Shown here: one piece after another, positions 2,664 to 63,908 of the stretch | Position numbering within the stretch: the stretch's first letter is position 1 | How the letters are laid out: each line of letters starts with the position of its first letter | DNA from: Elusimicrobiota bacterium | Lineage (GTDB): Bacteria; Elusimicrobiota; Elusimicrobia; Elusimicrobiales; UBA9959 | Assembly (NCBI GenBank): GCA_026388155.1 | Contig: JAPLKI010000013.1 | Location: forward strand, 62,001-126,000 | Direction of reading: 5' to 3' | DNA: 64,000 nt | Made by a program: the position numbers and the translations under genes | Notes under the pieces: model-generated | Told to the model about the DNA's origin: nothing | Databases searched by the model: none | What the model saw: only the letters and a program-made list of their open reading frames with translations

Positions 2664-5600
2664 ATGAATTTCTGCAAACATGGTTTAAAAATTCTGGCGG
2701 CGCTTATTGTGTTCCAGTGCGCGGCTTATGCGGTTCCGGCGGGAGCCCCGCAGGAAATAAATTATCAGGGCTATTACCGTGAAAACGGCAGGCCCGTGAC
2801 CGGGAACAGGACGATGAAGTTCCGTGTTACCAACATTGACGGACAAACGGAGTATTGGCCCGGCGCAGACATGACCGTGGCTGTATCAACCGGGCTGTTC
2901 AATGTGACTATAACTCCGACCGGTGTGGACTGGGGAACGGTCACTCCTTATATTGAAGTAACCGTGGCTGGCGACCTTCTAGGGCGCGAGAAAATAGCTA
3001 CCTCCATCTATGCTTTACACGCCTCAACCGCGGCTTATGCCGAAAACATAAGCGGAATAAACTCGGCCAAACTGGTACAGCTTGACGGCAACGGCTATCT
3101 GCCGGCGCTGAATGGCTCGAATTTAACCGGCCTGAGCAGCGGAGATGCCTATCTTGCGGCCAACCAGACCTTCACCGGGTTCAATACTTTTTCGAAAGCA
3201 GTGAATACCGGCGCGGCGTACCAGATTAACGGCAGCACGGTTGTTGCGGTATTGCCCGGAAACAGTTTGGGTGTGGGAGTTGGTGCGGGGAGGGTGAATA
3301 CCGGCAGTAATAACTCTTTCCTGGGCTATCAGGCGGGCTACACCAACACCACGGGCGGCAACAACTCTTTCCTGGGCTATCAGGCGGGCTACTCCAACAT
3401 CACGGGCGGCAACAACTCTTTCCTGGGCTATCAGGCGGGCTACAATAACATCACGGGCGGCAACAACTCTTTCCTGGGCTATGCTGCGGGCATCAGCAAC
3501 ACCACGGGCGCCGACAACTCTTTTCTGGGCGATTACGCGGGCTACCTCAACACCACGGGTGGTCAAAACTCCTTCCTGGGCTATCAGGCGGGCTACAACA
3601 ACCAGACTGGTTCGGGTGACACGGTGCTGGGGTATATGGCCGGCTTAGGCACTCCGGGCGGAAATTCTTTCTCCAGCTCAACGATTGTCGGCTATCATGC
3701 CGGATATTACCTGACCACCGGCAGCAACAACACCCTGTTAGGCTGGCAGGCGGGCGACAGCCTGACCATGGGCCACGACAATATTATTATCGGCTACAAC
3801 GTGGACGCTCCGGCGAACAACTCCGCCAACCGCCTCAATATAGGCAACGCCATTTATGGCGACCTGTCAACCGGCAATATTGGCATCGGGACGACGGCGC
3901 CGACCTCCACCTTTACCGTTGTCGGAACATTCAAACTTGTGGACGGTACGCAGTCTAACGGTTATGTGCTTACCTCCAACGCGGCCGGCCTGGCTTCCTG
4001 GGCAACTCCCGCAGCAGGCGGGGATGTGTATCTCGCCTCCACGCAGACCTTTACCGGCCAAAACACCTTTACTGGCACCATCTTTATCGGTTCAGCGATA
4101 CAGTCTACCCCCAGCGGCGGCAACCCGCGCGGCGACCAGGCTGTTGATCTGCAGACAAGCCGCGGGTCGGATACTCAGGTAGCATCCGGCTATCATTCCG
4201 TTATAGGCGGGGGCGGCGCCAACACGGCGAGTGGCTGGCATGCCACCGTTTCCGGCGGTGTGATGAACGCGGCCGGCGGTTCTTTTGCCAATGTAGCCGG
4301 AGGTAATGGCAATACGGCGAGCGGTCTATACTCCGGCGTGGCCGGCGGAACGCTCAACACGGCTAGCGCGAGCATGGCCACCGTAGCCGGAGGCTGGGGG
4401 AATGCTGCCGGCGGTATGTACTCAACCATCGCGGGCGGCCGTGATAACACCACGAAAGGCGACTATTCCTTTGCAGCCGGGTATCAATCCAGTTCCACGG
4501 CAAACGGCTCGTTCACATGGGCCGATTCCGCGGGCGTAATTGTTGAAAATAACGTAACCGACCGCACCTGGTTCAAGAACAGCGGCGGTTTCCTTGTCAC
4601 CGGCAGCACCCAGCCGATAAGCGACGGCGGCTTTTTTGTGAGTGGCGCCGGCAATGTCGGCATCGGGACTACTAGCCCGGGCGTGGCGTTGGAGGTTGCA
4701 GGGCAAGTGAAAATAACGGGCGGCAGCCCCGCAGCGGGTTATGTACTGACTTCTGACGCGGACGGCCTGGCAAGTTGGGAGGCCGGGGGCGGCGGGCTGG
4801 CTGTAATACTCTCCGGAGACGGCAGTTTGGGCGTGGGTGTTGATGTGGGTATATTTAGCACAGGGGATTCCGACACCTTTGTTGGGTATCAGGCGGGTTC
4901 TGCCAACACCGATGGGTGGGGGAACTCCTTTTTTGGACGTTATACGGGCCTTGCCAACACCACGGGGAACTACAACTCTTTTTTGGGCTCTCAGGCGGGA
5001 CAGTCCAATGAAACGGGCGGGAATAACGTCTTTGTGGGCGCTTCTGCGGGCGTATACAACACCGCGGGAAATGACAATTCCTTTGTGGGCTTTAATGCAG
5101 GTTTCAGCAACATCACAGGCAATGACAATTCCTTTTTGGGCTATCAGGCGGGCTATAACACCACGGCGAACAATAACTCCTTTGTGGGTAGTCAAGCGGG
5201 CCAGTCCAACACCACTGGGGGGGAGAACACCTTTATGGGCGCAACCGCGGGCTACCGCAACACCACGGGAGGACAGAACGTCTTTGTGGGTGTTGCTGCG
5301 GGACAGTTCAACGACACGGGAGGGAATAACTCTTTTTTGGGCGATGGGACGGGCTTATACAACACCACGGGGAGTAATAATACCCTGTTAGGCTACTCGG
5401 CGGGGCAGACCCTTGAAACGGGAGATGAGAACATTCTCATCGGCTCCGGCGTGGACGTTCCCGCTAGCGATTCTTCCTATCTCCTCAACATCGGTAATGT
5501 CATTTACGGCGACCTGAGTAATCAGTATATCGGCATTAACACCGATGCGCCGGACGCCACGCTGCATATCAATGGGACGTTCAAGCTGGTGGACAGCACT

Positions 5601-29351: not shown

Positions 29352-30776
29352 TTATTTTCTCCACACGCCGTCGGTCCACGCAACAAACTCATCCCAATCA
29401 GAGGCCTTGGAGAGGGCGAGTTCGCCGTACTTGGTTTCAAAGACGGCGTCCAGCTGCGGGGGAACGGTTTTTATTTTCATGGTCATGTTTATGGCCACTC
29501 CGCCCACCCGGGTATAATCATAACCGTTTTCCGCGTCGCTGTTAAGCCCGATGCTGCGCATTACCAGCTTGGACTTTATGAAGGTCATCAGGTTTTCGGC
29601 CGCCTGGCGCGTTTCCTGGGTCTTTGAATTCTGGCCGAGTAGAAGGGCGAAGTCGTAGAGGTCCACATAAGGCGCTATCGTTTTCTTTTTGTCGTTCTTG
29701 GGGTCCAGGCTTGAGAACCTTACGGCCTTGTCTATGGCGGTTTTTACGGCCTCGGTCTCGTTGTTCCGCATGGCCGCTCCGGCCAGCGCGTTGAGGTAGG
29801 GGGGCAGGTCGTTCAGGGCCTGGGGACGCACAGTGGAAATGGTGCCCGTGATGGAACTGAGCGGTATGTTAACGGGGCCGATGAGGCTGGCTCCGTTGGC
29901 GTAAAAATCCTTTTCCCAATTAATGAAGAAGTCGCTGATCTGTTCGTTTGTGGCGGCGGTGTTGGCGTTTATGAAATTGAGAAGTTTCTGATAATCAAAC
30001 CCGTAGGCCAGCATGGTCTCTTCCGAAGCCACTATCAGACCGACATTGTCTTTGACCTCGTAATCAATTTCCGCCATCTGCATCAGGCAGGCGTTCATGG
30101 CGAACACGTCCACATAGCCGGTCTGGCGCAGGATCTCCCCAAGCTGGCGGGTGCGCACATAGTTCTTGGTCTCATCGTCAAACAGGATGCCCCTGGAAGC
30201 GCCCTTGCCTGCCGGGTGGTCTTTCATTACAGGGTCTATCCAGCCAAGGCCGTGGTTCCAGAGGATGAACATATAGTGTCTGGCGGGGAAAGTGGTCTTG
30301 GCCCATTTAGCGAATTCTATGACGCGTTTATAGTCGCCCATGTCGGCGGCTGGATACTGGTTGTAAATGGTTTCGCCGGAGGAAAAGAGCCCGCTTTTAC
30401 CCACCAGCATGCGCTTTGAGCCTTTGCCGGTGGTGCCGTATTCCACCACCACATTGACCTTATCCGTGGTGCCCACCTTTTTCATCTCGTTCAAGTCTTT
30501 CTCGGCCCATTTGCCGGAGAGGCCTAAAAGCTGGCTCTGGCTCAGGTCGTTCTTTGAGTTCATGAACACCATTACGGTCCATTCTTTCAGTGCCTCGGGT
30601 TTGCCGTCTGGTTTGCCCGGCTTGATGAAATCAAAAATGCCTTTACCGGTTTCCATGGCGCGGATATCGCCCGCGCTTATACCATTGAGCTCAAAGTTGT
30701 CCTGCGCCTTCAGAGCAGACGCTCCCAGGAAAAGAGAGGAGAGTGCCACAGATAGCAGTTTAAAGGTCTTGTTCAT
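29352..30776 (-). CDS. Clostripain-family (C11) secreted cysteine protease
   Basis: 474 residues. Signal peptide to ...GASALKAQD. The C11 core has EWTVMVFMNSKNDL, the catalytic His in LWNHGLGW (~173) and the catalytic Cys in FAMNACLMQM (~227), plus a VASEETMLAYGFDY substrate-site region. Such proteases usually cut after Arg or Lys and self-process. This is the most divergent of three paralogues in the window: it has an extra ~25-residue insertion near DLSQSQLLGLSGKW and lacks the GSDACLMQM form of the motif. SD GGAGG lies before ATG 30776. Confidence 0.88.
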   Translation of the reverse strand: MNKTFKLLSVALSSLFLGASALKAQDNFELNGISAGDIRAMETGKGIFDFIKPGKPDGKPEALKEWTVMVFMNSKNDLSQSQLLGLSGKWAEKDLNEMKKVGTTDKVNVVVEYGTTGKGSKRMLVGKSGLFSSGETIYNQYPAADMGDYKRVIEFAKWAKTTFPARHYMFILWNHGLGWIDPVMKDHPAGKGASRGILFDDETKNYVRTRQLGEILRQTGYVDVFAMNACLMQMAEIDYEVKDNVGLIVASEETMLAYGFDYQKLLNFINANTAATNEQISDFFINWEKDFYANGASLIGPVNIPLSSITGTISTVRPQALNDLPPYLNALAGAAMRNNETEAVKTAIDKAVRFSSLDPKNDKKKTIAPYVDLYDFALLLGQNSKTQETRQAAENLMTFIKSKLVMRSIGLNSDAENGYDYTRVGGVAINMTMKIKTVPPQLDAVFETKYGELALSKASDWDEFVAWTDGVWRK

Positions 30777-39123: not shown

Positions 39124-40647
39124 ATGTCCAACAATTTCAAGATACTGTCGGTGGCCGAACTGACCTGTAAGGCGGCTGAACTGAGGAAAAAAGGTAAAAC
39201 CATGGTGCTCTGCCACGGAGTGTTCGACCTGATGCATCCCGGGCACATAAAGCACCTTGAGGCCGCCAAAAAAGAGGGCGATTTCCTTGCGGTAACTATC
39301 ACCCCGGACAAATACGTCAACAAAGGCCCCGGCCGCCCGGTTTTTAACGAGGTGCTGCGCGCCGAAACGCTGGCTTCTCTCACGGTCGTGGACTATGTCG
39401 CTATCAATAAATGGAAAACCGCGGCTGAAACCATAAAGGCCATACGCCCCGGCGTGTACGTGAAAGGTTCCGACTACGCCGCGCCGGAGGATGACCTTAC
39501 GGGAGGCATCCTGCACGAGAAAGACGCCATTGAGTCCGTGGGCGGCAGACTGCACTTTACCGACGAGATAACCTTCAGCTCTACCGAGCTGCTGAATAAG
39601 TTCTTCGGCGTTTTTTCCGACGAGACCAAGGAGTTCCTGGCGGGCTTCAAGAAAAAATATTCGGCCGGGGACGTGATCGAGAGCCTTAAGCGGCTTAAAA
39701 AGATGAAGGTGCTGGTTATAGGCGACACGATAATAGACGAATACCACTACTGCAAGGGAATGAGCAAGCCGCCCAAGGACAACATAATCTCCACCAAGTT
39801 CGTCAGCGAAGAGCGCTTTGCCGGCGGGGTGCTGGCCTGCGCCAACCATATAGCCGGATTCTGCGAAAAGGTCGATCTGGTTACCTGTCTGGGCAGCGTG
39901 GACTCCAAGGAAGACTACATACTGGAGCATCTCAAGCCCAACATAAAGCATAAGTTCTTTTACCGCAGCGACACCTGCACCGTGGTGAAACGCCGCTTCG
40001 TGGACCCGGTGTTCCTTACAAAGCTCTTCGAGGTTTCCTTCCTTGAGGACTACAACCTGCCGGATAAAACCATAAGCCGGATCTGCCGCCACCTGGAGGC
40101 GTCCGTCGGGAAGTACGACCTGGTGCTGGTAAGCGATTTCGGACACGGCTTCATAAGCGGCCCCATAGCAGCCGCGCTGTCAAAGGCGAAGTTCCTGGCT
40201 ATTAACGCGCAGTCCAACAGCGCCAACATGGGATATAACCTGATAACCAAGTACGGCAGGGCCGATTATCTTTGCATAGACGAGCCGGAAGTGCGGCTGG
40301 CCGCCCACAACAAGTACGGTGAGATCAAGGGCATAATAAAAAAACTGGCCGAACATCTTAAGAGCGGGCGCGCCTCCATCACGCGCGGCCATATGGGCTC
40401 GGTCAATTATGACAAGCGGCGGGGCTACTCCGAATGCCCGATTTTCAGCAGCAAGATAGTGGACCGCGTGGGCGCCGGTGACGCGTACCTGTCTCTCACA
40501 GCACCGCTGGCGGCTTCGGGCTGCGAGATGGATCTGGTCGGCTTCGTGGGCAACGCCGTGGCCGCCATAAAGGTGGGCATCGTCTGCAACCGCTCCTCCA
40601 TTGAGCCGGTGGAGCTTTATAAATTTATTACCACGCTGCTGAAGTGA
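39124..40647 (+). CDS. Bifunctional sugar nucleotidyltransferase-PfkB kinase (HldE-like, inverted order)
   Basis: 507 residues. Residues ~1-150 form an RfaE2/TagD-like nucleotidyltransferase (LCHGVFDLMHPGHIKHL, VNKGPGRPVFNE, VYVKGSDYAAPEDD). Residues ~190-507 form a PfkB-type carbohydrate kinase (VLVIGDTIIDEYHYC, LVLVSDFGHGFI, VDRVGAGDAYL with the catalytic GAGD near 449). Escherichia coli HldE has kinase first and nucleotidyltransferase second; here the order is reversed. It probably phosphorylates a sugar phosphate and activates it as a nucleotide sugar, paired with the SIS isomerase at 45657. It starts 20 bp after the epimerase. Confidence 0.85.
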   Translation: MSNNFKILSVAELTCKAAELRKKGKTMVLCHGVFDLMHPGHIKHLEAAKKEGDFLAVTITPDKYVNKGPGRPVFNEVLRAETLASLTVVDYVAINKWKTAAETIKAIRPGVYVKGSDYAAPEDDLTGGILHEKDAIESVGGRLHFTDEITFSSTELLNKFFGVFSDETKEFLAGFKKKYSAGDVIESLKRLKKMKVLVIGDTIIDEYHYCKGMSKPPKDNIISTKFVSEERFAGGVLACANHIAGFCEKVDLVTCLGSVDSKEDYILEHLKPNIKHKFFYRSDTCTVVKRRFVDPVFLTKLFEVSFLEDYNLPDKTISRICRHLEASVGKYDLVLVSDFGHGFISGPIAAALSKAKFLAINAQSNSANMGYNLITKYGRADYLCIDEPEVRLAAHNKYGEIKGIIKKLAEHLKSGRASITRGHMGSVNYDKRRGYSECPIFSSKIVDRVGAGDAYLSLTAPLAASGCEMDLVGFVGNAVAAIKVGIVCNRSSIEPVELYKFITTLLK

Positions 40648-40659
40648 TATGGCTGTCTG

Positions 40660-41760
40660 ATGGGCATAGCCCTTGATACGGCGCCAACACAGGTTATGGA
40701 TAAATACCGCATAGACACGCACAAGCTTATTTTCCACCCGGAACGCGTAAGCGACTGGCTGAAACATAAGGACATCTACCCCATTTACTCCGAGATCTCC
40801 CCGTCCGGCGCCTGCAACCACCGCTGCACCTACTGCGCTTTGGACTTTATGGAGTACAGACCGCGCTTCCTGGATACCAAGATACTGAAAACCCGCCTGA
40901 AAGAAATGGCGGGCCTGGGTCTGAAGAGCGTGATGTTCGCCGGGGAGGGGGAACCTTTCCTGCACCCGGACATGGCCGAGATCTCCGTGCACGCCAACAA
41001 GTGCGGCATAGACACCTCTTTTACCACCAACGCGACGCTGATGAAGCCCGCCATAATCGACAGGGTGCTGCCGACCACCTCCTGGATAAAGGTGAGCATA
41101 AACGGCGGAAACCCGGTGACCTACGCGCAGATACACCGGTGCAGCCCGGCGGACTTCAGGACAGTTTTCGCCAACATGGGCTACGCGGCCGCGCTGAAAA
41201 AAAAGAAGGGCTATGCCTGCGCGCTGGGTATGCAAATGGTGCTGCTGCCCGAGAACGCCCACGAGGCCGGGGAGTTGGCCCGGAAGGCCAGGGACGCCGG
41301 CATGAATTACCTGGTAATAAAGCCCTATTCCCAGCACCCGCAGAGCATAACGGATAAGTACAGGAAGATCCGCTACGCCGATTACGAGAGGCTGGCGGCT
41401 GACCTGGAAAAAGTTAACCGCCCGGGCTTCTCCGTGATCTTCAGGCTGAACACCATGCGGAAATGGGACGAGGGTTGCCGGCCCTACAACCGCTGCCTGG
41501 CGCTGCCTTTCTGGTCATACATAGACGCAGGCGGCAATGTCTGGGGCTGCAGCATGTTCCTGGGCAACGAGAAATTCCGCTACGGCAACATAAACGAAAA
41601 GACCTTCAAACAGATATGGGAAGGCGGGAAGCGCCGAAAGTCCCTGGAGTACGTGCGCAGGATGGACGCAACGGTCTGCCGCGTGAACTGCCGCATGGAC
41701 GAGATTAACCGCTACCTGTGGCAGCTGAAAAACCCCGTGGAGCATGCCAGCTTTATATGA
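40660..41760 (+). CDS. Radical SAM protein with SPASM-like C-terminus (first of pair)
   Basis: 366 residues. The cluster motif C52-N-H-R-C56-T-Y-C59 binds the SAM [4Fe-4S] cluster, followed by AGEGEPFLHPDM. The C-terminal part has further cysteines (CRPYNRC, VWGCSMF, VCRVNCRMDE) and the GNINEKTFKQIWEGG element common in SPASM/Twitch proteins, so auxiliary clusters are likely. It starts 12 bp after the fusion gene. A second ATG at 40696 (MDKYRIDTHKL) is also possible. Its paralogue follows directly. Reaction unknown; a sugar-modifying or carbon-rearranging step is inferred from context only. Confidence 0.85.
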   Translation: MGIALDTAPTQVMDKYRIDTHKLIFHPERVSDWLKHKDIYPIYSEISPSGACNHRCTYCALDFMEYRPRFLDTKILKTRLKEMAGLGLKSVMFAGEGEPFLHPDMAEISVHANKCGIDTSFTTNATLMKPAIIDRVLPTTSWIKVSINGGNPVTYAQIHRCSPADFRTVFANMGYAAALKKKKGYACALGMQMVLLPENAHEAGELARKARDAGMNYLVIKPYSQHPQSITDKYRKIRYADYERLAADLEKVNRPGFSVIFRLNTMRKWDEGCRPYNRCLALPFWSYIDAGGNVWGCSMFLGNEKFRYGNINEKTFKQIWEGGKRRKSLEYVRRMDATVCRVNCRMDEINRYLWQLKNPVEHASFI

Positions 41761-41837: not shown

Positions 41838-42950
41838 ATGGACGCTAAAGGGAAACTTATACTGGATGGGTCAAAGATACTATGGCATCAGGACAGGCTG
41901 GAGGCATGGAGAAACGGTAAACGGTTTGCGCCGATCACCATAGATATGGCCCTGACCAGGAGTTGTAATTATAAATGTGAATATTGTTTTAGCCAGTTGC
42001 AGGAAAATAAGCGGTATCCTATAACAATGAATGTAATGCGGAATTTTCTGGACGATTGCAGTAAAATGGGCGTGAGGGGTATCAGTCTCGTCAGTGACGG
42101 TGAGAGCACAATGAATCCGATTTGCTCCGACAGCATCATTTATGGCCGTCAAAAGGGGATATCGATGGCCATGGGGTCAAATGGGTATCTTCTGCGAAAG
42201 AATATTCTTAAAAAAATTCTCCCCGCGCTAACCTATTTGCGTTTTAATATTACAGCGGCCGAGCCAGAACGCTATGCGCAGATACATGGTGTGCCCGAGG
42301 CGTGGTATCACCAGGTGATACAGAATATCCGGGACGCGATGGAAATAAAAAAAGCGGAAAAGCTTGATGTTACAATTGGCATGCAGATGGTTCTGATGCC
42401 GGAATATGAAGATCAGATAGTGCCGCTTGCCAAACTGGGAGAACAATTGCAACCGGACTACCTGGTTATAAAACATTGTTCGGATGATGAGGCCGGTTCA
42501 TTCGGGATAGATTATGGTGGTTATAAGAAAATGTATGCTAACCTTAAGGAAGCTGAAAAATTCTCAAATGAAGAATACTTAGTCCAAGTGAAATGGTCAA
42601 AGATAGAAGCGGAAGGAAAAAGAGATTATTCCCGCTGCTACGGTCCCCCTTTCCATTTGCAGATATCCGGTTCCGGCCTTGTCGCGCCCTGCGGCGGTCT
42701 GTTTAATGAAAAATACAAAAAATATCACATAGGGAATTTTGTTGAATCACGGTTTAAAGACATAGTTTTCAGTGATCGCTATTGGGAAGTTATGGCGGAA
42801 TTGGCCTCGGAGAGGTTTGACGCAAAAAGTATGTGCGCGTGCCTCTGCCTCCAGCATAAAAGCAATGAGGTCCTGGATAGTTATAAAAAAGGGCTGATTG
42901 AATTGAAAAAGCCGGAGGGCGCCGTCCCGCAGCATGTGAATTTTATATAA
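41838..42950 (+). CDS. Radical SAM protein with SPASM-like C-terminus (second of pair)
   Basis: 370 residues. C43-N-Y-K-C47-E-Y-C50 is the radical SAM motif; SLVSDGESTMNP follows. It aligns along its length with the preceding gene (YAQIHG, IGMQMVLMPE, DYLVIKH, terminal PQHVNFI versus PVEHASFI). C-terminal cysteines differ (RCYGP, APCGG, MCACLC). Its DNA is visibly more AT-rich than that of its paralogue, suggesting separate arrival. Possibly it acts with the thiamine enzyme that follows 14 bp downstream. Confidence 0.85.
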   Translation: MDAKGKLILDGSKILWHQDRLEAWRNGKRFAPITIDMALTRSCNYKCEYCFSQLQENKRYPITMNVMRNFLDDCSKMGVRGISLVSDGESTMNPICSDSIIYGRQKGISMAMGSNGYLLRKNILKKILPALTYLRFNITAAEPERYAQIHGVPEAWYHQVIQNIRDAMEIKKAEKLDVTIGMQMVLMPEYEDQIVPLAKLGEQLQPDYLVIKHCSDDEAGSFGIDYGGYKKMYANLKEAEKFSNEEYLVQVKWSKIEAEGKRDYSRCYGPPFHLQISGSGLVAPCGGLFNEKYKKYHIGNFVESRFKDIVFSDRYWEVMAELASERFDAKSMCACLCLQHKSNEVLDSYKKGLIELKKPEGAVPQHVNFI

Positions 42951-42964
42951 AAGCAGGAGCCCCA

Positions 42965-44704
42965 GTGAAATTAACAGATTACGTCGCAGAATTTTTATCG
43001 AAAGAAGTAAAGCATGTGTTCGTAGGCAACGGCGGGGTAGTTGTGCATCTGCTCGACAGCATCGACAGGCATCCCGGGGTAAAAATAATTCCGTGCGAAA
43101 ATGAGCAGGGCGCCGCAATAGCCGCCGAAGCGTATTCGCGCGTAAGCGGAAACCTGGGAGTAGCAATAGCCACAAGCGGCCCAGGCGTGATCAACCTGCT
43201 GCAGGGGATAGCCTGCGCTTATTATAATTCTATCCCGGTGCTTTTTATAGCCGGAGCACCCCCGGTGGATCATTTGAGGGGGAACCGCAGCGTCAGGCAG
43301 CTTGGTTTCCAGGAGATGGATGTGGTAAAAATAACGGAAACGTTCACTAAGTATGCGGTGCTTGTGATTGACGCAAAACGGATCCGCTATGAGCTTGAAA
43401 AACTTGTTTATATGGCGAAAGAAGGGCGGCCCGGGCCGGTTATCCTTGATCTGCCTGACGACCTGCAAAGAGTGGATATCGACCCGGACAAACTGGAATC
43501 GTTTGTTCCGGAAAAAACACTGGACAATACCGATTACTGGAAAGCGATCGGCCGGCTGCGGGAAATGATCAAGGCCGCCGAGCGTCCGTTAATTATTGTA
43601 GGCGGTGGGGTAAAAATAAGTAAAACAGAAGTCCTGATGAAGTCGCTGCTGCGCAAGTGGGGAATACCGTTTGCGGCTACCTGGGCGGCAAAGGACATAT
43701 TCCTTGAAGACGATCCGGACCTTGTGGGAAATTTCGGTATATCGTCAAGCAGGTATGGCAACTTCGCGGTACAGACGGCGGATCTTATTGTTAGTTTTGG
43801 CTCACGGATGGATACCCATGAAACAGGGGGTAAACCTTCCACATTTGCCCCAAAAGCAAAAAAAATAATGATTGACATTGATGCCGGTGAGCTCGACAAA
43901 AATAACGGGGTAGACCTTGACCTTGCGGTGCATGCCGATCTTAGGATGTTTTTAAAGAAACTGGAATCAGCCGCTATAGAAACCGGGGACATCTCAAAAT
44001 GGAAGGCCAGGATACAGCAATGGAGAAAACGCTATCCCGTATGCGACCCTGAATACTACAAACGGGAAGAAAGCGTAAATCCGTATGTTTTCATGACCGA
44101 GTTGTCAAAGGTGACCGGAACTGGCGATATTATTATTACGGACGCGGGCGGGACGTTAATCTGGACAATGCAGGCATATCAGATCCTGCGACCGCAATTG
44201 CTGTTCAGCGCCTTCAATCACTCTCCTATGGGTTATGCGTTGCCCGCAAGTATCGGCGCTCAATTCGCCGCGCCTGATAAACAGGTGGTATGCATTACCG
44301 GAGACGGTGGGTTGAATATGAATATTCAGGAGCTGGAAACCGTGCTTTTCAATAAGCTCCCCATAAAAATATTCGTCATTAACAACGGGGAATACGGCAT
44401 CATGAAGCAAACCCAGGCCACCTGGCTGGAGTCGCGTTTTGTGGCTTCGGACAGTAGTTCGCTGGGTTTCCCCGATCTCGTTAAGATTGCGCAGGCATAC
44501 GGTTATGAAACCGTTGAAATTAAAGATCACAGGAAAATGGCCGGGAAAATACGGCGTGTTTTAGCGTCGAAAAAACCGGTGTTTTGCTCTATCAAATTGA
44601 AAAACAATGAGCCGCTCCTGCCCAAGCTGGTGTTTGGAAAACCCCTGGAAGATCTGGCGCCGCTTCTGGACAGGGAAGAATTGAAACGGAATCTGAAATT
44701 TTAG
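42965..44704 (+). CDS. Thiamine-diphosphate-dependent enzyme, acetolactate-synthase-like
   Basis: 579 residues in the three-domain layout of AHAS-type enzymes. The catalytic-Glu region is ENEQGAAIAAEAYSRVSG, the middle domain has PLIIVGGGVKIS and SFGSRMDTHETGG, and the ThDP/metal motif is GDGGLNMNIQELET...NNGEYG. It should decarboxylate a 2-keto acid and transfer or release the aldehyde unit. In sugar loci such enzymes (YerE type) add a two-carbon branch to a keto sugar, which fits here but is inference; true acetolactate synthase is less likely without a regulatory subunit. The start is GTG 42965 with SD GGAG. Confidence 0.87.
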   Translation: MKLTDYVAEFLSKEVKHVFVGNGGVVVHLLDSIDRHPGVKIIPCENEQGAAIAAEAYSRVSGNLGVAIATSGPGVINLLQGIACAYYNSIPVLFIAGAPPVDHLRGNRSVRQLGFQEMDVVKITETFTKYAVLVIDAKRIRYELEKLVYMAKEGRPGPVILDLPDDLQRVDIDPDKLESFVPEKTLDNTDYWKAIGRLREMIKAAERPLIIVGGGVKISKTEVLMKSLLRKWGIPFAATWAAKDIFLEDDPDLVGNFGISSSRYGNFAVQTADLIVSFGSRMDTHETGGKPSTFAPKAKKIMIDIDAGELDKNNGVDLDLAVHADLRMFLKKLESAAIETGDISKWKARIQQWRKRYPVCDPEYYKREESVNPYVFMTELSKVTGTGDIIITDAGGTLIWTMQAYQILRPQLLFSAFNHSPMGYALPASIGAQFAAPDKQVVCITGDGGLNMNIQELETVLFNKLPIKIFVINNGEYGIMKQTQATWLESRFVASDSSSLGFPDLVKIAQAYGYETVEIKDHRKMAGKIRRVLASKKPVFCSIKLKNNEPLLPKLVFGKPLEDLAPLLDREELKRNLKF

Positions 44705-44851: not shown

Positions 44852-45616
44852 ATGATGGTAGATAAAGGTATGAAAATTTCGGTGTTGATGCCGGCTCTTA
44901 ACGAGGCCAAAAATATAGAGGCGGCGATCACAAACACCCTTGCCGCATTTGACAGCACGGGGATAAACGGAGAGTTGATAGTTATAAACGATGGCAGTAC
45001 CGATGATACCCCGGCGTTTATGTGTAAGGCTGCAGCCGCGAACAAGCGGGTGCTCCTGCTGGACCACAAGACGCCGCAGGGCATAGGGGCTTCTTTCTGG
45101 GACGGTGTGGACAAAGCCTCTGGTGATGTGGTAGTTCTGCTTCCGGGAGACAACGAGAACGACCCCTGGGAGATTTTCCGCTATTACCGCCTGTTGGAGC
45201 ACGTGGACGTGGTCATCCCTTTCCTCTACAACAAAGAGGTGCGCTCGCTGTTCCGTAACGCCCTTTCCCTCGCCTACCGCTTTATCATCAACACCACCTT
45301 CCTGGTGTATTTCAATTATACCAACGGCACTGTGCTTTACCGGAAATCCATACTTAAGGAACTTCCGTGCAGGAGCACCGGCTTCTTTTTCCAGACGGAT
45401 ATTCTTATACGCCTGGTTAAAGGCGGCTACCTTTTTGCCGAGGTTCCGTATCGCCTGGGCCTGAGGAAGAGTGGTGTTTCTAAGGCAGTGAGTTTTCCAT
45501 CTTTGCTGCAGGTGATAAAGGGATACTCGCGGCTTGTGAAAGACCAGTATTTAAAAAAGCACGCCGCTGTTTCCTATACCGAGGATTCCCAAACCCTTAA
45601 GCGGCGGGGGGCCTGA
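44852..45616 (+). CDS. GT2-family glycosyltransferase
   Basis: 254-residue GT-A fold enzyme: VLMPALNEAKNIEAAI, VINDGSTDDTP, ASFWDGVDKASGDVVVLLPGD (DxD-equivalent region) and FFFQTDILIRLVKGGYLFAEVPY. This is the dolichyl-phosphate-mannose synthase/undecaprenyl-phosphate glycosyltransferase type but lacks C-terminal membrane helices. It may load a sugar onto a lipid carrier. Several ATGs (44852, 44855, 44870) are possible; GAGGGGGG sits just before the first. The 147 bp upstream hold no other gene. Confidence 0.87.
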   Translation: MMVDKGMKISVLMPALNEAKNIEAAITNTLAAFDSTGINGELIVINDGSTDDTPAFMCKAAAANKRVLLLDHKTPQGIGASFWDGVDKASGDVVVLLPGDNENDPWEIFRYYRLLEHVDVVIPFLYNKEVRSLFRNALSLAYRFIINTTFLVYFNYTNGTVLYRKSILKELPCRSTGFFFQTDILIRLVKGGYLFAEVPYRLGLRKSGVSKAVSFPSLLQVIKGYSRLVKDQYLKKHAAVSYTEDSQTLKRRGA

Positions 45617-46241: not shown

Positions 46242-46760
46242 ATGAAAACTCTTTTATGGGGGAACCTGATATTCTTTTCCTTTTTCCTGCTTCATTTTCT
46301 GGCATGGAAAGTAAAATTGCCTGCTCGCCAGACCAAGACTATTCTTATTATTATGTTTTCCGGGCTTGCGGCATCACTTGCGGTTTTTGTTATTTTCCCC
46401 TTCCTGACTATTTTGGGCGTTAAGGCGCCTGATACTCCCGCTGAATATATCTCCGTGGCTTTATATGTAGCCTCTTTTGTTTTGGCCTACATGATAACCT
46501 ACTCCGGCATAGAGGCTGATAGCCCCACTCTGGTTATGATGAAAATAATAGCTGATGCCAGAGAAAAAGGCATACAAACAGAAGAATTTTTTAATATGCT
46601 TAACAACGATATCCTTGTAAAACCGCGCCTTAGGGACTTAATAATCGACAAAATGGTATTTATAAGAGAAGAAAGATATATTTTAACCGCAAAAGGAAAA
46701 ATATTTGCTGAAATTTTTATACTCTACCGCAAAATCCTTGGGCTGGGGAAGGGCGGCTAA
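46242..46760 (+). CDS. Small membrane protein with soluble C-terminal domain (A of pair)
   Basis: 172 residues. Three hydrophobic segments (about 4-22, 33-58, 68-92) occupy the first half. The second half is soluble, helix-rich and looks like a winged helix (MMKIIADAREKGIQTEEFFNML, LRDLIIDKMVFIREERYILTAKGK), ending FAEIFILYRKIL. No known family recognised. It starts 3 bp after the SIS gene and its stop abuts the start of the next gene, which has the same plan. AT-richer than the upstream sugar genes. It could be a membrane-tethered regulator or an assembly factor. Confidence 0.7.
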   Translation: MKTLLWGNLIFFSFFLLHFLAWKVKLPARQTKTILIIMFSGLAASLAVFVIFPFLTILGVKAPDTPAEYISVALYVASFVLAYMITYSGIEADSPTLVMMKIIADAREKGIQTEEFFNMLNNDILVKPRLRDLIIDKMVFIREERYILTAKGKIFAEIFILYRKILGLGKGG

Positions 46761-47243
46761 ATGACAATGCTGCAGGCACTTTCACCCGTTCTGGCGCTTG
46801 CTGCTAACTGCATAACGCAGATATTAATATGCCGCATCAGCAAATCCCTGCTTAAATCGGTTTATGTGGGGTTTTTAGCGGGATTGGGTGTCTATACGTT
46901 GCGAAATGGTTTATCAGCGGAAATGTTGACGGGGGTTATTACCTACGGCGTTTTAAGTTACTGCTATTTCCATTTCATAAACCTTGGTGAAACAGCGCGA
47001 AGAATAAGGATACTGCGTGAAATCAATGACGCAATGCCGCAGGGGCTTTCCGAAAAGGAGCTGCTTTCAAAATACAACGCAAAAACCATTTTAGCCGTAC
47101 GGTTTCGCCGGCTGATAAACAACTCACAGGTAATTAACCGGGGGGACCGCTATTATCTCGGAAAACCCACCGTCTTATATATGGCGCAGATACTTATATT
47201 TATGAAAAAGCTGCTGCTGGGAAGAACCGGCGAGATATTATGA
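46761..47243 (+). CDS. Small membrane protein with soluble C-terminal domain (B of pair)
   Basis: 160 residues. Hydrophobic segments at about 5-25, 32-47 and 53-76 are followed by a soluble tail (ILREINDAMPQGLSEKELLSKY, LAVRFRRLINNSQVINRGDRYYLGKP) whose spacing mirrors that of the preceding protein, including a final MAQILIFMKKLL amphipathic segment. It begins at the base after the preceding stop. No family recognised. The shared plan suggests a heterodimeric or successive pair. Confidence 0.7.
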   Translation: MTMLQALSPVLALAANCITQILICRISKSLLKSVYVGFLAGLGVYTLRNGLSAEMLTGVITYGVLSYCYFHFINLGETARRIRILREINDAMPQGLSEKELLSKYNAKTILAVRFRRLINNSQVINRGDRYYLGKPTVLYMAQILIFMKKLLLGRTGEIL

Positions 47244-47292: not shown

Positions 47293-48669
47293 ATGGGAAA
47301 ATATCGCTATGTGATTTTGGCCTCTGTCCCTTTTATAGTCCTGTGCGTTTTTCTTATATCCACCACTTCGAATTTGCCGGTTTCGGACCAATGGGCGCTG
47401 GTTCCGTTGCTGGAAAAATGGTATGCCGGCAGTTTAACATTGCGGGATTTTATTACTCAGTACGCTGACCATCGGGTTTTCTTTCCTAGGCTGATTGTGG
47501 TGCTCATGGCGGCAATCACCCATTGGAATCTTTACTGTGAAGTCGCAGCCAATTTGTTCATGGGCATTCTTGTCTGCACGATTCTTTTCTACCAGATAAG
47601 AAAAATGGAAATATTCTTCAAGGTGCAAGCCAGCGCAATATATTTTTTTGTGTCGGTCTTTGTTTTCTCTGTGGCGCAGAGCGATAATTGGTTCTGCGCG
47701 CAAATAGGCCCGTTTTTATGCATTTTATCTTCTATCGCAGGAGTTATTTTTCTTTCCTCGCCGACATTCGACTTGAAAAAGTTTTTATTCGCCATAGCGG
47801 CCGGCATAATTGCGACCTACTCGTATGCCAACGGCCTGCTTTTTTGGATCATCGGATTCCTGATTTTGTGTGTGCGCCCGCTTAGCAGGAAAAAGGCCGC
47901 CCTTACAGCATGGTGCGCAATTTCCGGCCTGGTAGCGGCAAGTTATCTATGGAACTTTCAAAAGCCACCCCAGCGCCCTTCGCTTCTGTTAGCCGTGCAT
48001 CATCCGTTGCAGGCCGCCGGATATTTCTTTGTTTTTTTAGGCAGTCCTCTTTTGCCCTTTGAGAGATTTGCCGCACTTATCGGCTTTTTTGGTTTATTTT
48101 GCCTCACGGCTTCCATTTTTGTGGCGTATCATGCATACATGGCGACGCAAAAAAATCCGGTGGCTTTATTGCAGCTCTTTCCCTGGTTCGCATTGGCTTT
48201 TTTTAGCATTGCCAGCGCGATTCTTGTAACTATTGGAAGGGTGGGGTTTGGCATTGCCCAGGCAACGGCGCCACGCTATGTCACACAGTCAAATCTTTTA
48301 TGGATTGCTCTAATTGTGTTGACTCCGATCGCTGCGCAATCATTTATGCAGGTGTATTCCGGACTTTTGTCAAATATTGCGCGAAACAAAGTCCTGCAAT
48401 ATGTTTGCTTGATTGGTTTTTTTGCGCTGCAAATAAGCGTGACAAAGCAAAAGTGGTTTTGGGGAAAAGTGAGTAAGGATGAACTGACGAGCATCGGGAA
48501 TGCCTTGCTGGCCGGGGACTATAATGAAGAGCGGATTAAAGCTAGGATATATGCGCCTGGCAATATCCGTGACCGGGTTGCCTTTTTGAGGGAGCACCGG
48601 CTGGCCCTGTTTCGCGGCCGGGAACCAAACACTGGCGAAGCCGCGGCAAAGCCGCCGCCGCTAAAATAG
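47293..48669 (+). CDS. Polytopic membrane protein, possible GT-C glycosyltransferase or polymerase
   Basis: 458 residues with about ten transmembrane segments. The first periplasmic loop has SDQWALVPLLEKW, DFITQYADHRVFFPRL, an acidic/aromatic loop as in GT-C transferases and polymerases of bacterial polysaccharide loci. The C-terminal ~60 residues are soluble. SD GGGGGAAAGGAG lies before ATG 47293. Could be a Wzy-like polymerase or a lipid-linked sugar transferase; the sequence does not decide. It is the last gene of the plus-strand run, converging on the methyltransferase. Confidence 0.72.
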   Translation: MGKYRYVILASVPFIVLCVFLISTTSNLPVSDQWALVPLLEKWYAGSLTLRDFITQYADHRVFFPRLIVVLMAAITHWNLYCEVAANLFMGILVCTILFYQIRKMEIFFKVQASAIYFFVSVFVFSVAQSDNWFCAQIGPFLCILSSIAGVIFLSSPTFDLKKFLFAIAAGIIATYSYANGLLFWIIGFLILCVRPLSRKKAALTAWCAISGLVAASYLWNFQKPPQRPSLLLAVHHPLQAAGYFFVFLGSPLLPFERFAALIGFFGLFCLTASIFVAYHAYMATQKNPVALLQLFPWFALAFFSIASAILVTIGRVGFGIAQATAPRYVTQSNLLWIALIVLTPIAAQSFMQVYSGLLSNIARNKVLQYVCLIGFFALQISVTKQKWFWGKVSKDELTSIGNALLAGDYNEERIKARIYAPGNIRDRVAFLREHRLALFRGREPNTGEAAAKPPPLK

Positions 48670-53283: not shown

Positions 53284-54729
53284 TCAATACAGGCCGTATC
53301 TTAGATAAAGCCAGCGCCAGCGCAGATACTGAAAAACTTTTTTCGCGAACGCGCCGGTAGTTTGGGTCCTGAATTTTTTCCAGACTCTGCTGGCAAACCC
53401 GTGAGAGCCGGCGGCTCCGGCCGATTCGCCAGGGTACGAGGGATATAAAGACTTCCTGTCATAATCCTGCGCCCTTTCCGCCGCAGCTTTGAGAAAAGTA
53501 TAATCAATACCTTTCAGCTTGCCTTCCGCGCTGGAGGACCTGTTATAAAAAGCGCCCGCTTTTTTAAGCAACAGCCCGTTCTTCGCGCAGTAATCGCCCA
53601 GTTCGGTGCCCGGATACGGAGTGAAGAACGCCAGACTCGGGTAGGCGGGTCGTATTTCCCGTATAAGCCTGACCGTTTCTTTTACTTCTCCGGCCGTTTC
53701 CCCCGGTATGCCGAGCATGAAATTAGCGAAAATACTTACGCCGTATTTTTTACAGATCTCCGCAGCCGCAATGTTCTGGGCGACGGTTGTCCCCTTTTTC
53801 AGCAGGTCCAGTATCCTCTGGCTTCCGCTTTCGAAACCTATCAGAAAGCATTTAAGCCCGGTCTCAGCCATTTCTTTCACGGCAGCCTCGTTCTTCACTA
53901 TAAAATCGGCCCTGGCCTGGCAGGCAAAAGACTGTGGCAAGCCTTCCTCCCTGTAAGCCCTGCAGAACTCAAGGACATGATGGCTGTTCACCGTGAAAAG
54001 GTCGTCATGGATGAGCAGGCTGTTGAATTTATATCTTTCCCTTAAATATTCAAGTTCGCCGATAATATCGGGTACCGTCCTTATTTTCGCTCTTCCGCCG
54101 AATATCATGCGCTCGGCCGGCTGACAGAAAGAGCAGTTGAAGGGGCACCCTCTGCCCGCTATTATGGACACAAAAGGCTTTTCCATGAACGGCATCCAGG
54201 GGTTGGAGGCCTCTCCGTTCTCATAGTCAAAGATATCCCTGTCCGGATAAGGAATGGTCCCTATATCCGCCGGAATCCCTTCTATAACCTTTTCCCGCGG
54301 TTCTCCTTTTTCTATTTTAGACAAAAGCCGGGAAAAGCTTATTTCCCCCTCTCTTGTGATTATATGATCGATCTGCCGTAATTCGCGCACCTCCTCTAAC
54401 GCCACCGTGGGGTGAACGCCGCCGATAATGACTATAGAAGAACTGTCCACGGCCTTTATCCTTGAGGCGGCCTCAACGGCGGAGGGAAAATCGATGCTCA
54501 TTACGGAGATCCCGAAAACTCCGGGCGATCTTTTTTTCACCTCCGATTCGAAATTATCCCAGCCGCTGAGTTTGCGGAAATCCAGCAGGTCTATATCATG
54601 CCCTTCTTTTTTAGCGTAAGCGGAAATATAAGCCAGCCCGTACGGCACGAAATTTTCGCTTATCCCGCCTTGCCCAAAACTTCCCCAGCCGCTCAGAACG
54701 ATGCCGGGAAAGATCAAAGTAGCTCGCAT
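53284..54729 (-). CDS. B12-binding-domain radical SAM protein
   Basis: 481 residues. The N-terminal ~140 residues form a cobalamin-type Rossmann domain (PYGLAYISAYAKKEGHDIDLLDF, VIIGGVHPTVALEE, HIITREGE) without the DxHxxG ligand. The radical SAM core carries G-C-P-F-N-C-S-F-C (~195-202), LLIHDDLFTVNS, FLIGFESGSQRILDLLKKG and FMLGIPGET. Class B radical SAM methylases have this layout. In a polysaccharide or lipid locus it could methylate an unactivated carbon. Substrate unknown. Confidence 0.88.
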   Translation of the reverse strand: MRATLIFPGIVLSGWGSFGQGGISENFVPYGLAYISAYAKKEGHDIDLLDFRKLSGWDNFESEVKKRSPGVFGISVMSIDFPSAVEAASRIKAVDSSSIVIIGGVHPTVALEEVRELRQIDHIITREGEISFSRLLSKIEKGEPREKVIEGIPADIGTIPYPDRDIFDYENGEASNPWMPFMEKPFVSIIAGRGCPFNCSFCQPAERMIFGGRAKIRTVPDIIGELEYLRERYKFNSLLIHDDLFTVNSHHVLEFCRAYREEGLPQSFACQARADFIVKNEAAVKEMAETGLKCFLIGFESGSQRILDLLKKGTTVAQNIAAAEICKKYGVSIFANFMLGIPGETAGEVKETVRLIREIRPAYPSLAFFTPYPGTELGDYCAKNGLLLKKAGAFYNRSSSAEGKLKGIDYTFLKAAAERAQDYDRKSLYPSYPGESAGAAGSHGFASRVWKKFRTQTTGAFAKKVFQYLRWRWLYLRYGLY

Positions 54730-61069: not shown

Positions 61070-62326
61070 ATGTTTAAGAAATTAGTCGCAGTATTCGCCA
61101 TGATAGCCATAGTTTCACCCCTGGTGTCAGCCGAAATAAATTTCGACACCCCCAAGAAAACAACCCTTCAGCAGGAAATAGCCGATCTCGAGTTGAGCGT
61201 GCCTGTGGCCGCACCGGTGGATGTAAAAGCGCATTCCGGCAAAGTGGATAAAGAATGGACCATAATGGTCTTCATCAACGCCAAGAACAACCTGGAAAAA
61301 TACGGGTTGATGGACATGAACGAGATGGAGATGATAGGCTCCACCGACAAGGTGAACGTGGTGACCGAACTGGGCCGCATGAGCGGCTACGACAGCTCGG
61401 ACGGCAACTGGGTCGGTTCCCGCCGTTATCTAGTGGTGAAAGATGCCAACATGAGCAAAATCGCCTCTCCCGTGGTGCAGGACCTGGGCAAGGTGGATAT
61501 GGGTGACTACAAGCACCTGATAGACTTCGCCACCTGGGCCAAGAAGAACTACCCGGCCAAGCGCTACATGCTGGTAGTCTGGAACCACGGCGCTGGCTGG
61601 ATCAAGTCCCGCGGCCTGGAGGTCAAGGGTATTTCCTACGACGATGAGACCGGCAACCACATCAACACCCCCCAGCTGGGAATGGCTCTGAAGGGCATCG
61701 GCAAAATCGATGTGTACGGCTCGGATGCCTGCCTGATGCAGATGCCTGAAGTAAACTATGAAATAAAGGACTATGTGGATTATATAGTGGGTTCCGAAGA
61801 GACCGAACCCGGCGACGGTTATACCTATAACATGCTGCTCGGGCCCCTCGTCGCCAAACCCACCATGCTCGGTGCGGAACTCGGCAAGCTGGCCGTGGAC
61901 GCCTACAGCGATCATTACGGCACCCAGGACCACACTCAGAGCCTTGTGCTGGCTTCCGCCATGAACGGCCTTGTTCCCGTGATCAACGACTTCGTTGCCG
62001 CCGCCATCGCAGCCAACGAGAAACCCCTGATCAAGACCGCCATGGGCAGCGCGCAGTCTTACGCCTACGCGGAAAACAAGGACCTGTGGCACTTCCTGAG
62101 CCTCTACAGCGCTTCTTCCCAGAACGCGAATGTGAAGGCCGCGGCGAAGGCCCTTCAGGACTACCTGACAGGCAAGCTGATCCTTCACAACCGCGTGAAC
62201 AGCACATACGCCGACTCACACGGTTTAGCCATATACCTGCCCGACTCCCCGAATTCGGCCTACAACGATCTGGCATGGGCCAAGGCCTCGCAGTGGGACG
62301 AGTTCATCAACTGGTACACTAAATAA
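61070..62326 (+). CDS. Clostripain-family (C11) secreted cysteine protease
   Basis: 418 residues. Signal peptide to ...SPLVSAEI. EWTIMVFINAKNNLEKYGLMDMNEME, the catalytic His in VWNHGAGWI (~172) and Cys in GSDACLMQM (~220) are intact, as is the VGSEETEPGDGYTY region; C-terminal DSHGLAIYLPD is shared with paralogues. It probably cleaves after basic residues outside the cytoplasm. SD GGGAGG precedes ATG 61070. The next gene is a close paralogue in tandem. Repeat and palindrome elements upstream may regulate it. Confidence 0.9.
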   Translation: MFKKLVAVFAMIAIVSPLVSAEINFDTPKKTTLQQEIADLELSVPVAAPVDVKAHSGKVDKEWTIMVFINAKNNLEKYGLMDMNEMEMIGSTDKVNVVTELGRMSGYDSSDGNWVGSRRYLVVKDANMSKIASPVVQDLGKVDMGDYKHLIDFATWAKKNYPAKRYMLVVWNHGAGWIKSRGLEVKGISYDDETGNHINTPQLGMALKGIGKIDVYGSDACLMQMPEVNYEIKDYVDYIVGSEETEPGDGYTYNMLLGPLVAKPTMLGAELGKLAVDAYSDHYGTQDHTQSLVLASAMNGLVPVINDFVAAAIAANEKPLIKTAMGSAQSYAYAENKDLWHFLSLYSASSQNANVKAAAKALQDYLTGKLILHNRVNSTYADSHGLAIYLPDSPNSAYNDLAWAKASQWDEFINWYTK

Positions 62327-62515: not shown

Positions 62516-62624
62516 GGCCCTTTGGGTAACTCCGCTTCTGGGTCTTAGGTCCCTTGTTAAAGATCAATGGCAGGGTTAAACTATATACATGCGGAACAAA
62601 CTTAACACCACCACGGAGGAATCC

Positions 62625-63908
62625 ATGATACGCAAAATATCGCTGTCGGTGCTGGCCGTGTCACTGTTCGCTTCCCTAGTATCGGCGGAAGTCGATTTTG
62701 ACAAAGGCACGGGCATCAATATTAAGGAAGAACTGGCGAATACAGAGGTTACGCCTCCGAGTGCGCCGCAGGACAAAGGCGCAATATGGGACTGGTTTTT
62801 CGGAGCACCGGCGCCGAAGGGACCCGCTGAATGGACTATAATGGTTTTTGTGAACGGCAAAAACAATCTGGAGCCGTTCGCCCTCAAGGACATGAATGAA
62901 ATGGAGCAGGTCGGCTCTTCAGCCAAACTCAATATAGTGGTGGAAGCCGGCCGCATGGGCGAGTATACCACGGTAGGAAACTGGACCGGCACCAGACGCT
63001 ACCTTATAAAGAAAGATAAAGACACCAACAACGTGACCTCCCCGGTGGTACAGGATATGGGCAAGGTGGACATGGGTAATTACAACAGCGTGATAGATTT
63101 CGGCAATTGGGCCAAGAAGACCTATCCCGCCAATCACTACATGCTCATAATATGGAATCACGGCGCGGGCTGGATAAAATCCGTCAATACCAATAATAAA
63201 GGCATTTCTTACGATGACGAGACCGGCAATCACATCAATACCCCGCAGATGGCCGCCATACTCAAAGGCATAGGCGGAGTGGATATATATGGTTCGGATG
63301 CCTGCCTTATGCAGATGGCGGAAGTGGTCTACGAGATAAAGGATTACGCGCAGTACATTGTAGGTTCGGAAGAGACCGAGCCCGGCGATGGGTACACTTA
63401 TAATACCTTCCTCGGTCCCTTGGCGGCCAAGCCGGCCATGACCGCGGACGAACTTGCGAAGACCGCGGTGAACGCGTATGCGGACCATTACAAGGCCAGC
63501 GGCGAGGGTTCCACGCAGAGCTATATAAAATCCACCAGCATCCCCGGAATGCTTAACGCGGTGAACGCTTTCTCCTACGCCATAACCCAGGCGGGGGATA
63601 AGAGCGTTGTGAAAAGCGCCATGAGCTCGGCCCAGAGCTACGCTTATCCGGAGAACAAGGATCTCTATCACTTCGCCCAGCTCGTAGTGGCGGGAACCAA
63701 GTCAGCGGATGTTAAAGCCAAGGGCAACGCGCTCATGTCCTACATAACCGGCATGGTGCTGGCCAACAGGACAACCGGGAACTACTCCGATTCCCACGGT
63801 ATGGCCATTTACCTGCCGCCGTCCGCTCCCGAGGCCGGTTATACCGACCTTGCCTGGGCCAAGTATTCCAACTGGAGTCAGTTCATTGGCTGGTATCAGA
63901 AGCCGTAA
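62625..63908 (+). CDS. Clostripain-family (C11) secreted cysteine protease
   Basis: 427 residues from ATG 62625 (SD GGAGG); twelve upstream in-frame residues are rejected as they precede the signal peptide. Signal peptide ends VSAEVD. EWTIMVFVNGKNNLEPFALKDMNEME, the catalytic His in IWNHGAGWI (~178) and Cys in GSDACLMQM (~226) are present. It is closely similar to the preceding gene, with an insertion near ~45-65 (KGAIWDWFFGAPAPKG). The pair probably arose by tandem duplication. Same expected activity. Confidence 0.9.
   Translation: MIRKISLSVLAVSLFASLVSAEVDFDKGTGINIKEELANTEVTPPSAPQDKGAIWDWFFGAPAPKGPAEWTIMVFVNGKNNLEPFALKDMNEMEQVGSSAKLNIVVEAGRMGEYTTVGNWTGTRRYLIKKDKDTNNVTSPVVQDMGKVDMGNYNSVIDFGNWAKKTYPANHYMLIIWNHGAGWIKSVNTNNKGISYDDETGNHINTPQMAAILKGIGGVDIYGSDACLMQMAEVVYEIKDYAQYIVGSEETEPGDGYTYNTFLGPLAAKPAMTADELAKTAVNAYADHYKASGEGSTQSYIKSTSIPGMLNAVNAFSYAITQAGDKSVVKSAMSSAQSYAYPENKDLYHFAQLVVAGTKSADVKAKGNALMSYITGMVLANRTTGNYSDSHGMAIYLPPSAPEAGYTDLAWAKYSNWSQFIGWYQKP

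Follow-up and report, generated by a model that had tools for sequence, protein, structure and literature searches.

What do two small membrane proteins do that lie end to end in a glycan operon and resemble no named family? This question is raised by gene A (46242-46760, 172 amino acids) and gene B (46761-47243, 160 amino acids) on the forward strand of an Elusimicrobiota genome of 3.36 Mb, studied here within a window, i.e. the whole stretch of 64,000 nucleotides that was analysed. The start codon ATG of B begins at the first base after the stop codon of A, and the coordinates under which a preliminary description had listed the two genes as abutting and unrecognised proved exact. Pfam gave no family for A or B at E ≤ 1 and NCBIfam returned only noise below its cut-offs, in line with the remark in that description that its author knew of no family with this layout. 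Searches for solved relatives with the sequence profiles A5 and A6 found nothing of weight; the weak matches among solved structures were two designed proteins at E 0.01 and Sso10a at E 0.025 on the tail of A. In the literature no description of the pair was found, which is a weak negative, since open-licence papers only were covered. A and B form an unnamed family of uncultured bacteria from many phyla that is kept as a pair, and nearly all relatives are encoded in metagenome-assembled genomes.

As the preliminary description had indicated, the pair lies in a glycan locus, directly downstream of a SIS isomerase (PF13580, 45657-46238). The genes named here are all on the forward strand: an NAD-dependent epimerase/dehydratase (PF01370, 38090-39103) is followed by an HldE-like fusion of PfkB and cytidylyltransferase (39124-40647), two radical SAM/SPASM proteins (40660-41760 and 41838-42950), a single-chain TPP enzyme (42965-44704) and a glycosyltransferase of family GT2 (44852-45616, 254 amino acids) that belongs to the ArnC/DPMS family and has no membrane helix. 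Downstream of B, a polytopic protein with about 11 hydrophobic segments is encoded (47293-48669); it matched no Pfam family over cut-off, and its GT-C-like nature is guessed from its position. In 34 neighbourhoods (the window, L041 and L047-L078), the full form of the operon has the order HldE-like protein, SIS isomerase, radical SAM/SPASM protein, E1-alpha/beta-like TPP enzyme, GT2, radical SAM/SPASM protein, A, B and polytopic protein, while the window has its SIS gene between the GT2 and A. Of 33 neighbourhoods, all but L075, 23 encode a protein with at least seven hydrophobic segments no more than 6.5 kb away. Among the 29 polytopic neighbours scanned, seven matched YfhO, three DUF2079 and one PMT_2, and most others carried no GT-C family. 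Most related loci encode the TPP enzyme as an E1-alpha/beta-like pair; the single-chain enzymes of the window and of L078 (5285-7072), 48% identical to each other, occupy the same slot, which looks like an enzyme swap within the operon. That the TPP enzyme makes a branched sugar, as YerE does, is our guess.

AlphaFold2 models of A (mean pLDDT 89.5, alignment of 45 rows) and B (mean pLDDT 92.0, alignment of 41 rows) share one layout, in which three membrane helices are followed by a winged helix and then by a C-terminal helix. In A, the modelled membrane helices comprise residues 2-24, 30-51 and 66-92 (46245-46517), the winged helix residues 95-149 (46524-46688; helices 95-109, 113-124 and 126-135, strands 139-142 and 145-148), and the last part the helix 150-166 with a flexible GKGG end (46689-46757). 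In B, the membrane part is formed by residues 8-27, 30-49 and a long helix 55-90 that extends into the cytosol (46782-47030), followed by the winged helix of residues 91-135 (47031-47165; helices 98-104 and 108-120, strands 124-127 and 130-133) and the C-terminal helix 137-153 (47169-47219). In the model, the tail of B is clearly a MarR-like winged helix: together with the end of helix 3 it matched MarR-type folds in VIA (Z 10.6, 2.4 Å, 78 residues, 17% identity), and the VIA matches listed for it are winged helices nearly throughout, including MarR, PadR and CggR. Foldseek assigned probabilities near 1 to matches of the B model at E 0.05 or worse; at E ≤ 0.001 it found no match for either model. 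The tail of A is predicted to be a winged helix too, by its model and by homology, with weak matches to winged helices in the PDB (VIA Z < 5). Helical bundles ranked first in VIA for the A model, and this likeness of the membrane part (Z at most 6.2) was set aside as a common arrangement.

The models thus agree with the three hydrophobic segments, the membrane tethering and the matching soluble tails of winged-helix order with a final helix that had been read from the sequence alone. With membrane segments assigned from hydropathy in place of a topology predictor, the mean net charge of loop 1 was +2.82 in A (n = 45) and +2.66 in B (n = 41), that of loop 2 +0.07 and −0.85, respectively. Due to the basic loop 1 and the non-basic loop 2, the positive-inside rule places the N-terminus outside and the tail in the cytosol, so that an N-out/C-in topology is likely for both proteins. 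The last helix of each is basic and hydrophobic (mean Kyte-Doolittle hydropathy +0.51 in A, +1.78 in B), properties with which it could rest against the membrane.

The relation between A and B goes further than had been recognised. While the tails are 31% identical over 75 amino acids (BLASTP E 2e-7), the profiles A5 and A6 align over 155 columns with an hhalign probability of 97.9% (E 3.4e-13), membrane part included. Since the similarity extends through the membrane part, it points to homology and not to chance, and A and B are, judged from these alignments, full-length paralogues. In a maximum-likelihood tree all A proteins form one clade (support 96/90) and all B proteins another (100/100); this tree has some long branches, and its bootstrap had not converged completely. 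Two more distant pair types, C-D and S1-S2, fall apart from A and B, and S1 and S2 are sisters, which points to a separate duplication behind their pairing. According to this tree, pairs evolved more than once. C-D pairs have the same architecture and were found in L043 (8842-9900), L044 (1933-2990), L045 (9962-10995), L046 (260-1326) and L089. The one in L044 adjoins a NikR-like regulator and an Orn/DAP/Arg decarboxylase, away from glycan genes, and related genes are found in L045. S pairs occur in L119 (3375-4536), L126 (1331-2446) and L127 (888-2006).

Tails of unrelated folds, or homologues that occur singly in unrelated contexts, would have spoken against the preliminary description. Instead, the two tails have a common fold, and we found homologues only as pairs: no lone A or B was seen among the loci printed out, every one of which had both members. 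For 39 of 41 A genes, B follows downstream at distances from a 4-nt overlap to 99 nt; in L052 a YfhO-like gene lies between A and B, and L084 has a second A with a second B after it. The working set of 41 A and 41 B rows comes from about ten phyla; it leaves out nine loci that repeat another locus and members with a best E to the first profiles above 1e-12 (the three S pairs and A of L088), whereas the second pair of L121 lay outside the search behind it. C-D loci were not included in these rows, and four D rows were added to alignment A5. Distances among A and among B correlate with r 0.90 (40 loci, 0 of 1000 permutations), which shows joint inheritance only. A covariation between the acidic E91/D93 of A and the basic R80/R81/R83 of B was considered and rejected, because inspection by eye showed that in f5 the arginines of B are retained although the acids are gone from the A rows.

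A search of 101 relatives, with the own genome among them, gave strong hits to A and to B in an identical set of eight genomes, and the A profile had matches at E ≤ 0.001 in 24 of 340 Elusimicrobiota genomes. One pattern scan of GTDB contigs gave 44 stretches, 32 of which encode a relative, with the phylum labels Nitrospirota, Thermodesulfobacteriota, Myxococcota, Nitrospinota, Omnitrophota, Verrucomicrobiota, Lentisphaerota, Planctomycetota, Pseudomonadota and Elusimicrobiota. Single metagenome-assembled genomes labelled Woesearchaeota and Levybacteria also carry relatives and may be misbinned. The A and B proteins of L052 (Nitrospirae) and L061 (Levybacteria) are very similar, with branches of about 0.1, which suggests recent transfer or misbinning.

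A feature beyond the preliminary description is the C-terminus of A. It is glycine in 41 of 41 A rows and Gly-Gly in 36 of them; when A of L088, the exception, which ends in -PL, and the second A of L121 are added, 42 of 43 A proteins end in glycine. D proteins end in glycine as well, and in the three S pairs both halves end in Pro-Gly-Gly. From these S and D endings we infer that the glycine end of A is probably ancestral and was lost in B. The last block of A was modelled with low confidence (mean 50), as for a flexible tail. The idea that the Gly-Gly end makes A a ubiquitin-like carrier is not supported: the own genome has two ThiF genes, neither within the window, and the one on the same contig as the pair is about 55 kb away and contains a stop codon. 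A bolder and improbable idea is that the winged helix now serves to dock enzymes at the membrane, in a family that repeatedly gave rise to obligate heteropairs by duplication, and that the flexible Gly-Gly of A would be a working element, either inserted in the active site of a partner or covalently activated, in a split lipid-linked sugar synthase of new design. The strictly kept glycine offers a handle for a direct test.

Which gene of the locus could the pair serve? Among solved structures, the GT2 is closest to ArnC (E 1.1e-13) and to a dolichol monophosphate mannose synthase (E 9e-11), both of which are longer chains. ArnC and DPMS carry C-terminal membrane helices. Copies of the GT2 at 51-82% identity were found in 16 of the 33 other neighbourhoods, i.e. 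in 17 of 34 with the window, and the GT2 is better conserved than A or B. Four more neighbourhoods contain a distant GT2 (25-30% identical), and no membrane helix was predicted by the hydropathy threshold in any of these 21 proteins. In six loci checked in which the GT2 gene lies directly upstream of A, the two overlap by 4 nt in four and are within 7 nt in the other two. Among 334 Elusimicrobiota genomes (a phylum draw slightly different from the 340 above), the GT2 is encoded in 21 (E ≤ 1e-30), the pair in 22 and both in 13 (Fisher 1e-12, uncorrected for kinship). The count of 22 omits G006, with a match inside a 527-aa frame, and G256, with a match containing stops, and for four f5 genomes the GT2 count rests on a protein of only 28-33% identity that is encoded on a different contig from the pair. 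At an identity of at least 40%, the pair is present in 8 of 11 GT2 genomes (Fisher 1e-8, same genomes, likewise uncorrected).

Type-II DPM synthase (DPM1, DPM2, DPM3) likewise combines a helix-free GT2 of a normally membrane-anchored family with two small membrane proteins, and GacJ/WpsB and Rv3632 provide precedents; for these reasons we propose A-B as the membrane module of the GT2. Our favoured explanation, to which we assign a probability of roughly 45%, is a split polyprenyl-phosphate sugar synthase whose membrane half would be A-B, a pair with winged helices for docking that is similar in role to DPM2/DPM3 or GacJ and unrelated to them in sequence. Starting from the paralogy, fold, likely topology, pairing, conserved context and helix-free GT2, we infer that A and B would form a heterodimer with six membrane helices, N-termini outside and two winged-helix tails on the cytosolic face. 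These tails, as protein-docking domains and not DNA readers, would dock and probably activate the GT2. The HldE-like, SIS, radical SAM and TPP enzymes would supply an unusual sugar, the GT2 would load it onto polyprenyl phosphate, and the GT-C-type protein would use the lipid-linked sugar outside. Judged from context, the probable task of A and B is to keep a sugar-transferring enzyme at the membrane and to support it there, and not to control genes. The former proposal of chain-length or assembly factors is compatible with this in its second half, provided that an assembly factor is understood as an accessory protein of a synthase for lipid-linked sugars, while nothing supports a chain-length factor.

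Several observations speak against a split synthase. The GT2 occurs without the pair in G015, G229 and G001, the last of the same genus and 94% complete, which has the whole operon and no A-B. A GT2 of at least 40% identity is absent from 14 of the 22 pair genomes, and the pairs of L055, L065 and L125 and the C-D pairs of L044 and L045 adjoin unrelated genes. Furthermore, the SIS gene separates the GT2 from A in the window. In G001 (L116, G001:C44), an Rrf2-like regulator (2726-3145) is among the next downstream genes.

One candidate parent family was DUF2304, to which we take Rv3632 to belong. GacJ-like genes are reported to bear DUF2304 (PMC8327497), and GacJ/WpsB is described as forming a complex with, and activating, the GT2 GacI/WpsA (PMC10821137). 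Rv3632 has been suggested to direct PpgS to the membrane and to stabilise it there (PMC6487176, PMC3485146). Like GacI/GacJ, WpsA/WpsB and Rv3631/Rv3632, the loci studied here combine a small membrane protein gene with a polyprenyl-phosphate GT2 and a GT-C, and the place of A-B beside the same ArnC/DPMS-type GT2 in half of the neighbourhoods corresponds to that of DUF2304 genes. In contrast to these systems with one small protein, A-B is a pair, and the DUF2304 profile has only 106 positions. DUF2304 (PF10066) had no match in A or B and reached a best E of 0.009 in 2 of 45 A/D rows; hhalign gave 1.1% and 0.14%, with only eight Elusimicrobiota DUF2304 rows as comparison set, and DUF2304 was rejected as parent family. 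Human DPM1 is described as lacking membrane helices and as using DPM2 and DPM3, proteins of 80-90 amino acids with two membrane helices each (PMC5526996). A and B have three membrane helices each, and from their size DPM2 and DPM3 lack a winged helix. At E ≤ 0.1, neither the DPM2/DPM3 families nor GtrA (PF04138) were matched by the 45 A/D and 41 B rows; as for EamA/SMR proteins of the ArnE-ArnF type, EamA matched 2 of 41 B rows at a best E of 0.035 and none of A. On this profile evidence, A and B are not members of the DUF2304, GtrA, EamA or DPM2/DPM3 families, a very distant link to DUF2304 being conceivable.

A different role in the same pathway would be that of a flippase for the polyprenyl-phosphate sugar: in a three-component glycosylation system, A-B would take the part of GtrA/GtcA or ArnE/ArnF, and its tails would link it to the GT2. 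The position of two small, paralogous membrane proteins between GT2 and YfhO/GT-C-like genes recalls CsbB-GtcA-YfhO as described in PMC7389260, and as in that system and GtrA-GtrB-Gtr, a GT2, small membrane protein(s) and a GT-C are found in one locus or genome. GtrA-type proteins hold this very place in CsbB-GtcA-YfhO; GtrA is encoded in only two of the eight A-B genomes among the 101 relatives, once on another contig and once 53 kb away, and none of the 94 other small ORFs of the neighbourhoods looked GtrA-like by hydropathy and by eye. For these reasons we retain the flippase as an alternative, an unlikely one. It would have to work with only three short helices per protein and shows no sequence relation to GtrA or EamA beyond the two B rows. 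A winged-helix pair in the GtrA-type place and a GT2 without membrane helices are both foreign to the known systems, and the flippase leaves the latter unexplained.

The fold of the tails invites another explanation, already raised in the preliminary description as a sensor/regulator pair: A and B would be transcription regulators tethered to the membrane, which together sense a glycan intermediate and use their winged helices to bind DNA. The tail of B shares its fold with MarR, PadR and CggR, its winged helix is basic (mean net charge +2.63, 41 rows), and an arginine in helix 3 is conserved. The winged helix of A, however, is slightly acidic (−0.47, 45 rows; no DNA-binding control set stood beside these values), the hydrophobic C-terminal helices may press the domain on the membrane, and, unlike those regulators, A and B are membrane-anchored, occur only as a pair and are mostly encoded mid-operon among enzymes, in some loci overlapping the GT2 stop codon. 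We therefore consider regulation less well supported, and improbable. Still more doubtful is the idea that the pair scaffolds other enzymes encoded nearby in the locus, e.g. the radical SAM/SPASM or B12-radical SAM proteins, and not specifically the GT2. In several loci the gene immediately before A encodes a radical SAM/SPASM protein, and roughly one neighbourhood in three has B12-radical SAM genes no more than three or four genes away, but radical SAM genes are absent near some A-B pairs, e.g. in L055 and L068.

If the split synthase is real, the membrane part of such enzymes would have been replaced repeatedly. To our knowledge, only few unrelated forms of small membrane partners of polyprenyl-phosphate glycosyltransferases are known (DPM2/DPM3, GacJ), and paired winged-helix proteins from about ten phyla would be a third form. 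Two genes now called hypothetical in many metagenome-assembled genomes could then be named, and they would clearly exemplify how a fold of the DNA-binding type can be recruited for docking on the membrane side.

Elsewhere in the window, a B12-binding radical SAM protein is encoded at 53284-54729 on the strand opposite to A-B, and three genes encode peptidases C11 of the clostripain family (29352-30776, 61070-62326 and 62589-63908).
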